Virus record (IMG/VR): IMGVR_UViG_3300040801_001777
Coordinates: 1-42,075 of that record
Origin: a virus
Strand: one strand, 5' to 3'
Length of the DNA: 42,075 nt
A program made the translations under genes and the position numbers. Under the pieces are notes generated by a model, which saw only the letters and a list, made by a program, of their open reading frames with translations, had not been told where the DNA came from and searched no databases. Below, in pieces: positions 9,680-42,075 of this stretch (positions are counted from its first letter, which is position 1; every line of letters begins with the position of its first letter).

Positions 9680-10287
9680 AAATGAAAAAGATCACGCAGG
9701 ATGAGTTCGACGCCCTAACCATCGTTGATGGACGCCGCGTATGTCCGACCGCGGACTATTCAGCGATCGGCAGCTTCGGTGAGTTTTGCAGCTTCGGCGA
9801 GCGGTGCAGATTCGATGAGCAGTGCGGCTTCGGTGAGCAGTGCAGCTTCGGTGAGTGTTGCAGCTTCGGCGAGCAGTGCAGATTCGGTGAGCAGTGCAGC
9901 TTCGGCGAGGGTTGCAGCTTCGGCGAGTGGTGCAGATTCGGCAAGGATTGCAGCTTCGGCGAGGATTGCAGCTTCGGCGAGCGGTGCAGCTTCGGCAAGG
10001 GCTGCAGCCTAGAGGCCTTGGGCGTGCCGATGTTGACGCGGTGCGTGTGGTCTTGCGGTGGCCTGGGGTCTGAGGGTCGCACGACTTATGGCATCGCAAT
10101 GGCTTCGGGCGTGCATGTTCGATGCGGTTGCTGGTCTGGCGACCTGGCCGCATTCCGGGCAGAGGTGGCTAAGACACACGGCGAGAGTGGTCACGCCGAA
10201 GACTACCTGGCGCTGGTTGACATCTGGGCGCGCAAGCACCAGCGGATGTTGATTGAGATGAGCGAACCCCAGAAGGAGCAAGCGTGA
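9676..10287 (+). CDS. Cysteine-rich hexapeptide-repeat protein (CSFGE type)
   Basis: The 203-residue protein begins with MKMKKITQDEFDAL, resembling the start of the other repeat protein at 1290. It then has twelve consecutive hexapeptides of the form C-[S/R/G]-F-[G/D]-[E/K]-x (residues 33-110), and a C-terminal domain of about 90 residues containing CGCWSGDLAAFRAEV and HAEDYLALVDIW. Regular six-residue spacing suggests a left-handed beta-solenoid with stacked cysteine and phenylalanine ladders. Proteins with this layout are known from phages without an assigned role. ATG 9676 follows GGAG and overlaps the previous stop. The C-terminal RMLIEMSEP duplicates the end of its upstream neighbour. 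Confidence 0.78.
   Translation: MKMKKITQDEFDALTIVDGRRVCPTADYSAIGSFGEFCSFGERCRFDEQCGFGEQCSFGECCSFGEQCRFGEQCSFGEGCSFGEWCRFGKDCSFGEDCSFGERCSFGKGCSLEALGVPMLTRCVWSCGGLGSEGRTTYGIAMASGVHVRCGCWSGDLAAFRAEVAKTHGESGHAEDYLALVDIWARKHQRMLIEMSEPQKEQA
9772..10011 (+). repeat. 18-bp tandem repeats encoding CxFGEx hexapeptides
   Basis: About 13 units of an 18-bp motif based on TGCAGCTTCGGCGAG plus one variable codon. Units differ mostly at the last codon and at AGC/AGA. The array is capable of in-frame length change. Confidence 0.93.
10242..10268 (+). repeat. 27-bp direct repeat, right copy flanking the cassette
   Basis: Exact copy of 9604-9630, encoding RMLIEMSEP near the end of the hexapeptide-repeat gene. 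Recombination between the copies would delete the repeat gene and leave the upstream gene intact with the alternative ending PQKEQA. Confidence 0.9.
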
Positions 10288-39854: not shown

Positions 39855-39902
39855 CGGCCCGCCCCGGCCTGTCAGGGGCAGCACCCAAGATGGAGATGAT
39901 GA
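39855..39902 (+). repeat. 48-bp duplicated leader, copy 1
   Basis: Identical over 48 bases to 40307-40354, ending one base before the ATG in each case. It contains GCCCC/GGGGC arms (hairpin), a palindromic CCTGTCAGG core, and the ribosome binding region GGAGATGATGA. Confidence 0.92.
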
Positions 39903-39903
39903 G

Positions 39904-40272
39904 ATGGCAACCAACAACGACCGACCCCGAGTTAACGCATGCACGGAGACCGCCTTGATCTCAGGCGTGGAGGTGACGCTCGTGCCCGCCGATGCTCGCG
40001 TCGGCGGGTTCACGTACCCGGCGAGTCAACTTTGCGATTCGCCCGAAACTGCACTGACCGCCGCCATTCAACGCGGCCACAAGGGAGACCTGCTGATCCG
40101 CAAAAGCATGGGGCGTTGGCAGGCGTTTGAGCGACGGCAGCACCGTAAGGAGCGGGTCGCCGTCAAGGGCGGGGGCACCGCAGAGGTCACAAAGCGAGTC
40201 CGCGAGCCCGGTGCTGGCACACGCGCCGTCAAAACGCGGGCGGGTTCGGGCCGAGTATTTTTTCAGGAATAA
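39904..40272 (+). CDS. Hypothetical basic protein, 122 residues
   Basis: The N-terminal half (VNACTETALISGVEVTLVPADARVGGFTYPASQ) appears strand-rich, and the C-terminal 45 residues are strongly basic (RRQHRKERVAVKGGG, TKRVREPGAGTR), suggesting nucleic-acid binding. No family recognised. It is the first plus-strand gene under the regulated promoter, the position of early or Cro-like genes. ATG 39904 is chosen because the duplicated leader with its Shine-Dalgarno ends just before it. Confidence 0.65.
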   Translation: MATNNDRPRVNACTETALISGVEVTLVPADARVGGFTYPASQLCDSPETALTAAIQRGHKGDLLIRKSMGRWQAFERRQHRKERVAVKGGGTAEVTKRVREPGAGTRAVKTRAGSGRVFFQE

Positions 40273-40306: not shown

Positions 40307-40354
40307 CGGCCCGCCCCGGCCTGTCAGGGGCAGCACCCAAGATGGAGATGATGA
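40307..40354 (+). repeat. 48-bp duplicated leader, copy 2
   Basis: Exact copy of 39855-39902 placed before ATG 40356. The genes behind the two copies are not obviously related beyond MATNND/MTTNAP at their starts. Confidence 0.92.
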
Positions 40355-40355
40355 A

Positions 40356-40835
40356 ATGACGACCAACGCCCCCCAATCCCGCACCATCAGCCTGCCCCGC
40401 GCCAACGGCTCGTCGGTCGATGCCGTCGTCACCCTCGGCCCCGTCGAATCCCAGGACGGATTCGATGACTGGATCAATGCGTCTGTGTCGATCAATGGGC
40501 GGACGTTCGTCGTCGGCGGGGGCACGATTCACAGCGACGACACCGCCACGTCGCAAAATCGATGCGCCGGCCTCCAGGTCGACACTCATCCGGAAATGCA
40601 CTGGCCAGGTGCAGTGTCCGCCGGAGACTTTTCGGCGTACGACATCTCGCCGCAAACGGTCAGCGGCAGGGTCATGCCCGCGAACTTTGACGAGTGCGGT
40701 GACATCATCGAACTGGTCGCGTTTCTGGGGTGGTCGATCGACCACGAGGACGACGACGAAGCCCAAGACTCGGTCGACGCGTGGGACAAAATCGCTGGCG
40801 AAATCGACGGCGCTGTGGACGATTTGCTCGCCTGA
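40356..40835 (+). CDS. Hypothetical acidic protein, 159 residues
   Basis: The N-terminal half is strand-rich (AVVTLGPVESQDGFDDWINASVSING) and the C-terminal half helical and strongly acidic (IDHEDDDEAQDSVDAWDKIAGEIDGAVDDLLA). Its acidity contrasts with its basic neighbour, which shares the same leader. An anti-restriction or DNA-mimic type role is conceivable but unsupported. No family recognised. A stem-loop follows the stop. Confidence 0.65.
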   Translation: MTTNAPQSRTISLPRANGSSVDAVVTLGPVESQDGFDDWINASVSINGRTFVVGGGTIHSDDTATSQNRCAGLQVDTHPEMHWPGAVSAGDFSAYDISPQTVSGRVMPANFDECGDIIELVAFLGWSIDHEDDDEAQDSVDAWDKIAGEIDGAVDDLLA

Positions 40836-40882: not shown

Positions 40883-40985
40883 GGAATCGAGACGGATTCT
40901 CTGACTCGATGGGGCCGCAAGCTGTTGCAGCGCACCCTGCTCGCCGCGGCGTCGGAATCGAGACGGATTCCGTCTCTCGATGGGG
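40883..40985 (+). repeat. Pair of 32-bp repeats with 39-bp spacer, CRISPR-like geometry
   Basis: Repeats at 40883-40914 and 40954-40985 agree at 28 of 32 positions, both starting GGAATCGAGACGGATTC and ending TCGATGGGG. In each, ATCGAG pairs with CTCGAT to make a hairpin; in the second copy the changed bases extend the stem. Only two copies exist and no cas1/cas2 is near, so this is not called a CRISPR array. Confidence 0.7.
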
Positions 40986-41028
40986 CACCGCGACTTCTAG
41001 ACGCTCACCCACCCCCGCTCTCATCATC

Positions 41029-41063: not shown

Positions 41064-41267
41064 ATGCGCGGGGGCTGCGGTGGTGGGAGATAGTTATGGC
41101 TCGACATGGCTCAATCCTAATCCACCAGCATCACCCATTCCAAATCGCAAGGGCAAAGCCCGCCACGACCCCACGTGCAAAACCTGTGGATAACTCAACT
41201 TTTCAGCTTAGGGCTTACCCTGATTTTCAGAACGCCGAATGACGCTCGGCCGAGCGTGTTCTGGCGG
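41064..41267. other. Non-coding stretch with a perfect DnaA box
   Basis: No convincing gene is seen. It contains TGTGGATAA at 41185-41193, the reverse of the DnaA-box consensus TTATCCACA, within locally AT-richer sequence, and two TTTTCAG direct repeats (41200-41206, 41224-41230) on either side of a small AGGG/CCCT hairpin. These may be binding sites flanking the attachment site. Confidence 0.45.
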
Positions 41268-41314
41268 CTGGCTTCCCAAGCTGAATGTCGCGGGTTCGAA
41301 TCCCGTCTCTCGCT
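41268..41314 (+). other. 3' half of a tRNA-Gly(CCC) gene, attP-like site
   Basis: The segment reads as the anticodon arm (loop TTCCCAA, anticodon CCC), variable loop, a good T arm (GCGGG-TTCGAAT-CCCGT) and acceptor 3' strand CTCTCGC with discriminator T. The required 5' half with GCGAGAG is absent upstream, so this is not a complete tRNA. Temperate phages that integrate into tRNA genes carry exactly such 3' fragments as the attP identity block. CCA is not encoded. Confidence 0.78.
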
Positions 41315-41317
41315 TTT

Positions 41318-41334
41318 CCCTTGTTTTACAAGGG
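41318..41334 (+). terminator. Short hairpin after the tRNA fragment
   Basis: CCCTTG (41318-41323) pairs with CAAGGG (41329-41334) around TTTTA. It could be the original tRNA terminator carried over from the host, or an integrase/core binding element. Confidence 0.5.
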
Positions 41335-41412
41335 ATAGCTGAACTCGGCCGTTATCGGTCGGGCGTGCGGGAGACTCTTTACGAGCCGACCAGTTCATTC
41401 CGCACGAGCATC

Positions 41413-41449
41413 GACCCCGTTGGTGTAGGAGCCGGCGGGGTCTTTCTTT
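41413..41449 (+). terminator. Intrinsic terminator upstream of promoter
   Basis: GACCCCG (41413-41419) pairs with CGGGGTC (41436-41442), followed by TTTCTTT. It isolates the downstream promoter from transcription coming from the attP side. Confidence 0.7.
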
Positions 41450-41453
41450 GCTC

Positions 41454-41481
41454 TTGACAGCCGACCGACTGCCGTTAGCTT
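41454..41481 (+). promoter_or_regulatory. Candidate early promoter
   Basis: TTGACA (41454-41459), 16-nt spacer, TAGCTT (41476-41481). A CCGACCAGTTC motif in inverse orientation begins about 9 nt downstream, over the expected start site. Transcripts would run into the integrase-like ORF and, across the circle, into the early operon at 114. Confidence 0.55.
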
Positions 41482-41546
41482 GATCGGCAGAACTGGTCGG
41501 CCAGCCGGACCTCCTACCCCGGCCCCGACGACAACCCAAGCACCTC

Positions 41547-41619
41547 GCACAGACCGATCGGTCCCATCTGTGGCCCGATCGCCCGAGGCCCCCGACCAGT
41601 TCACCCGGTCGGTCTGTGC
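41547..41619. repeat. Inverted repeat around the third motif
   Basis: GCACAGACCGA at 41547-41557 is the exact inverse of TCGGTCTGTGC at 41609-41619. The pair encloses the third CCGACCAGTTC copy. With the other repeats here, it marks a protein-binding control or recombination region. Confidence 0.7.
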
Positions 41620-41745
41620 ATTGAGACGCCCTCACATTGGCGTCGCCATGGATGGCTACGGTGGACAACGCACGTCCAAAATCCGATGGAGCGGGACCGA
41701 GTTTGCGGCAAACGCCGCTCGTTCCGGGACTTATCGGAGATAGTC

Positions 41746-42075
41746 ATGTTGTTTCGCGAAGCCGCCGACGCCTACGTGGCCTGGGCCTACCAGGCCAAAC
41801 GACCGGGGACCGCGCACAATCTCAAGTCGCACCTGCTGCGGGCCAAGGAGGCGCTGGGCGACGCATTGCTGAGCCCGAGCGCTACCTCAACGGCGCAGAT
41901 CTCAACCGCCACGCCCCCAGGCGGTGCCCGATCGACGGCGGGGGCAGACATCAACGCGACTTCTCCCCTGTGCGTCGCCGGGCCATCCCCTCGGGCCCGG
42001 CGGCGACTTTTAGAGGCGACCTATGCCCCGGCCGGCGGCGCTGCCGGTCGGGGCGGGCTGGAGGTGGTGGGATGA
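41746..42075 (+). CDS. Integrase-like N-terminal fragment, possibly frameshifted
   Basis: The 109-residue ORF begins MLFREAADAYVAWAYQAKRP and continues TAHNLKSHLLRAKEALGDALL, the pattern of the core-binding (SAM-like) domain of tyrosine recombinases. No catalytic R...HxxR...Y domain follows. After about residue 45 this frame becomes low-complexity. Another frame (reading EPERYLNGADLNRHAPRRCPI) has more coding-like codons and stays open into the gene at 114. A frameshift or deletion near 41868 is therefore likely. GGAGA lies 5 nt before ATG 41746. In circle its TGA overlaps the next ATG. Its position beside the tRNA-derived attP fits an integrase remnant. Confidence 0.5.
   Translation: MLFREAADAYVAWAYQAKRPGTAHNLKSHLLRAKEALGDALLSPSATSTAQISTATPPGGARSTAGADINATSPLCVAGPSPRARRRLLEATYAPAGGAAGRGGLEVVG
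41959..42075. repeat. Terminal direct repeat, right copy
   Basis: Exact copy of positions 1-117. It includes the terminator-like hairpin and leader stem-loop described at the start of the window and the last codons of the integrase-like ORF. Confidence 0.95.

Follow-up and report, generated by a model that had tools for sequence, protein, structure and literature searches.

Anticodon-centred attP sites and sites carrying a 3' tRNA gene fragment are the commonest attachment-site classes in the Islander collection, in which sites combining both traits number some two thousand (PMC4383910), and the anticodon-centred ("A") class is also that of Williams 2002, as cited there. The window analyzed here, i.e., the whole 42,075-nucleotide stretch of IMG/VR virus record IMGVR_UViG_3300040801_001777, contains a tRNA-Gly(CCC) half of the same extent as the 3' fragment at these "A" sites, from the anticodon stem-loop to the tRNA end. 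It also resembles them in that integration would regenerate the whole tRNA gene, but differs from them in having no integrase gene beside the half. In tRNA-dependent lysogeny, a short core destroys the tRNA and a phage-encoded tRNA compensates for the loss (PMC10865867), whereas the core in the window is 44 bp long and the window holds no tRNA gene. The attP class of the window is ordinary, and the missing integrase is its sole unusual point. Lactobacillus phage LL-H, a virulent phage with remnants of integration elements, is similar in combining an attachment-site remnant with the lack of a working integrase; an integrase remnant has been reported for LL-H, while none is demonstrable in the window.

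Comparisons with other tRNA-Gly(CCC) halves and intact genes make it likely that the half is the common core of an attP, the target being tRNA-Gly(CCC) in a bacterium that probably belongs to the Phycisphaerales or is close to them. If the missing integrase is real, this phage would allow one to test whether an attachment site can outlive its enzyme or borrow another.

The phage and its tRNA-Gly(CCC) half

The ends of the record are identical over 117 bp, giving a closed circle of 41,958 bp (Table 1), and this repeat contains the ribosome-binding site and start codon of the gene at position 114. Based on scans with PHROGs, the gene set is that of a tailed phage of the siphovirus type, comprising exonuclease, Sak4-like annealing protein, primase/helicase, RusA, and DNA methyltransferases, as well as TerS, GpA-type TerL, portal, head protease, major head protein, and tape measure. 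A search with the exonuclease recovered no close relatives, and TerL relatives in IMG/VR are only 23–36% identical to the window TerL. Two genes (1447–1790 and 9734–10043) contain 18-nt tandem repeats encoding hexapeptide repeats (GIEAGS/GIKAGE-like; CSFGEQ-like), and a 75-nt leader, with copies 88% identical, precedes two neighboring small genes of unknown function (39855–39929 and 40307–40381).

Table 1 Features of the putative attP region and of the record end
Feature	Positions	Strand	Remarks
Imperfect palindrome/hairpin	41233..41266	.	directly left of core
3' half of tRNA-Gly(CCC), putative attP common core	41271..41314	+	letters, ARAGORN, comparison with other halves and intact genes, shuffles
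Small hairpin CCCTTG...CAAGGG	41317..41335	.	directly right of core
GCCGACCAGTTC, motif copy 1	41385..41396	+	candidate arm-type or operator site
Terminator-like hairpin, then TTTCTTT	41413..41442	+	2 found in region vs 1.1 expected by chance
GCCGACCAGTTC, motif copy 2	41490..41501	-	
CCCGACCAGTTC, motif copy 3	41591..41602	+	1 mismatch
First plus-strand ORF right of core to have an ATG behind purine-rich sequence	41746..42075	+	databases gave no match
117-bp direct repeat of bases 1-117	41959..42075	.	circle closure 41,958 bp

The 44 nt held in common with tRNA-Gly(CCC) genes (GCTTCCCAAGCTGAATGTCGCGGGTTCGAATCCCGTCTCTCGCT) include the anticodon loop TTCCCAA at 41273–41279. The first-pass annotation had started the half three bases earlier, at 41268; the half itself is present, but these first three bases fall outside the identity, reading CTG in the window and TCA in intact Phycisphaerales tRNA genes. 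A complete tRNA, which the same annotation had listed as evidence against an attachment site, was detected in the window neither by ARAGORN nor by Rfam at the gathering score. With up to three mismatches allowed, the 44-mer occurs once in the window, compared to 0.00 times in 100 dinucleotide-preserving shuffles. The fragment spans the anticodon stem-loop to the tRNA 3' end, and its break point lies within the anticodon stem, 2–4 bases before the anticodon loop, exactly as in the four other halves compared for this feature (L002, L003, L010, and L030, see below). This common break point places the window half in the anticodon-centred, 3'-fragment attP class. A chance match, or a tRNA fragment serving a use other than attachment (e.g., as a decoy RNA), would fit the hairpins flanking the fragment, but is highly improbable given that the match is far beyond chance and that both ends of the fragment coincide with those seen in integrating elements.

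To the right of the core, three copies of the GCCGACCAGTTC motif (two exact and one with a single mismatch) cluster within 220 bp, compared to 0.48 copies expected in the whole window, and could be arm-type sites or operators. To its left, a 33-nt direct repeat with a short palindrome is found at 40883–40915 and 40954–40986, 71 nt apart. The likeness of the repeat at 40964 to the tRNA end (14/16) was rejected, as it is estimated to be at about chance level.

Copies of the core in viral contigs and bacterial genomes

A 35-nt core is common to 14 IMG/VR contigs. Thirteen of these (L003–L009 and L011–L016) encode one 395-codon tyrosine integrase, with 101 bp between its stop codon and the tRNA end. 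The tRNA is present as an attP-like half in 11 of the 13, and as a complete tRNA, ahead of the same integrase and at the same distance, in the other two (L009 and L011). These two arrangements represent a single family of elements in its attP and its attL state, which supports the earlier proposal that the half in the window marks an attP. In the fourteenth contig (L010, 94.9 kb), the half is located inside a 678-codon open frame, equal in length to the frame with the PF00589 match of that contig. Overall, of the 18 genomes or records used for comparison, 16 gave a PF00589 match, and the 14 that have the core are all among these.

The 13 elements share with the window the same tRNA, the same break point, and 43 of 44 core bases. 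They differ from it at the acceptor end (CTCCCGCT in the elements, CTCTCGCT in the window), in their unrelated flanks, and in the nearby integrase, which is absent from the window. A G-variant of the core was not found in viral contigs.

In genome_contigs (84,980 species, each represented by one genome), the exact 44-mer has a single match, an orphan half in the Phycisphaeraceae MAG PL23b_bin.10 (L002, G001:C17:169648-169691). All 44 bases are equal to the window while the flanks are unrelated, and this half lacks the 5' part and lies ~254 bp from a contig end. No intact tRNA carrying the exact 44-mer was found in this collection. Across 400 genomes of the order of this MAG, Phycisphaerales, 17 further genomes carry the 44-mer with one or two mismatches, 16 of them within intact tRNA-Gly(CCC) genes (42/44 positions equal to the window) and one as another orphan half (43/44; L030, genome G169). 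Intact tRNA-Gly(CCC) genes from the family of the MAG match at only 39–40 of 44 positions, lower than elsewhere in the order, for an overall range of 39–42/44 among intact genes. A 20-mer query covering T arm and acceptor end matched other tRNAs and, in one case, a partial tRNA end.

Strand exchange, by a tyrosine recombinase, would be expected within the anticodon loop or directly beside it. The host 5' half and the phage half would then together form a working tRNA at attL, and attR would be marked by the host 3' half that they displace. Among the sequences compared, neither a prophage nor a junction sequence of the window phage itself was found. The half is intact, all 44 bases being those of the MAG half, and this argues against long decay and for recent use. 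We infer that the window phage integrates or did so recently, with an integrase either lost recently or acting in trans.

A probable attachment site without a recognizable integrase

The window phage has an attachment site but no recognizable integrase, and the first-pass annotation passed over the lack of this enzyme, which is expected beside an attP. With six frames read through stops, the window yielded no candidate for a tyrosine recombinase (PF00589) or for a serine recombinase (PF00239), which also sets it apart from the serine-integrase phage class. Direct comparison with 19 proteins from related integrase loci gave no integrase match in the window, and no PHROGs integration family was detected among 40 scanned window ORFs. 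Minus-strand ORFs over 41198–41743 did resemble two integrase-locus frames (E about 2e-4), but this likeness was rejected as an antisense translation of the tRNA itself. As no tyrosine integrase gene was recognized in the same element, the site is termed attP-like on the basis of its anatomy. A search for papers on virulent phages having an attP but no integrase returned nothing direct.

To the right of the half lies non-coding DNA, along with a 129-aa ORF that belongs to no known family. The ORF starting at 41746 looked by eye like a likely N-terminal integrase remnant (AYVAWA...NLKSHLLRAKEALGD). When tested against a profile of 32 core-binding domains, it ranked third of 786 ORFs with an E-value of 1.6, and the remnant was rejected as unsupported. 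Searches of phage records, of viral contigs, and of Pfam gave no match for this ORF, and a search of 150 Phycisphaerales genomes gave only weak ones (best E 0.04), with no integrase at the match in the two loci that were opened.

Recent integrase loss, supply in trans, an unrecognized recombinase, and an assembly gap are all possible explanations for this pattern. We consider it most likely that the window contains a genuine attP, the integrase of which was recently lost or is supplied in trans. One form of this reading, to which we give a little less than an even chance, is that a temperate ancestor had its integrase deleted, leaving a phage that is now virulent and a half that is a functionless fossil. 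The lack of any recognized integrase or other integration gene in the window, together with the non-coding DNA and the ORF of no known family to the right of the half, would be expected under this scenario. On the other hand, the 44 undamaged bases argue for a recent loss at most, and the supposed integrase remnant at 41746 is unsupported.

Another form of the attP reading, which we regard as unlikely, is that the phage is complete and lacks an integrase of its own, yet its tRNA attP still works, integration being carried out by the enzyme of other elements that reside at this tRNA-Gly(CCC) or by a recombinase of a kind missed by PF00589 and PF00239. Here the intact core, the use of the same tRNA-Gly(CCC) by other elements with integrases, and the resemblance of the three clustered motif copies right of the core to arm-type sites are all favorable, although the motif could equally be a repressor operator and no candidate recombinase gene was recognized in the window. 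Finally, the integrase gene could lie in sequence missing from an incomplete or wrongly closed record. The record is derived from a metagenome, and every other contig found with the core has a PF00589 match; however, no gap is visible, and the 117-bp ends, by spanning the ribosome-binding site and start codon of one gene, read as one locus, which makes this explanation quite improbable.

A probable planctomycete host

A genuine attP would tie this uncultured siphophage to a probable host group, and name the tRNA gene where its prophage may be sought. We propose that the host is probably a planctomycete in or near the Phycisphaerales (Planctomycetota), this order being the best guess from the one exact half, in the MAG, and from TerL relatives in the same order. 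The expectation of the first-pass annotation that the segment could identify the host is thus partly realized: the exact 44-mer leads to one Phycisphaeraceae MAG, but occurs there as an orphan half and was found in no intact tRNA. Its prediction of a host acceptor beginning with GCGAGAG is not supported, since the 5' acceptor strand is GCGGGTG in all 16 of the intact tRNA-Gly(CCC) genes from the order, as well as in those genes from the family of the MAG that align without gaps. In the order sample, U6 of this strand is already mismatched with U67 of the 3' strand CTCCCGC in the same genes, and pairing it with the 3' strand of the window would gain only one G-U pair, so that a GCGAGAG acceptor is not needed.

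In a search confined to Phycisphaerales, TerL relatives (33–41% identical in the best segment) were detected in 3 of 400 genomes, while the MAG PL23b_bin.10 had no TerL match at E ≤ 1e-60. One of these three Phycisphaerales genomes (G025; L081 3449-10987, G025:C30) includes an integrase frame that begins 16 bp past a tRNA-Ala(GGC) gene and, ~4 kb after this frame, a TerL 41% identical to the window TerL in the best segment, a locus that is a probable prophage. The Phycisphaeraceae MAG has another integrase gene that is convergent with a gene for tRNA-Gly(TCC) (L018/L058, G001:C22:4752-5596), so that a further glycine tRNA seems to serve as a target.
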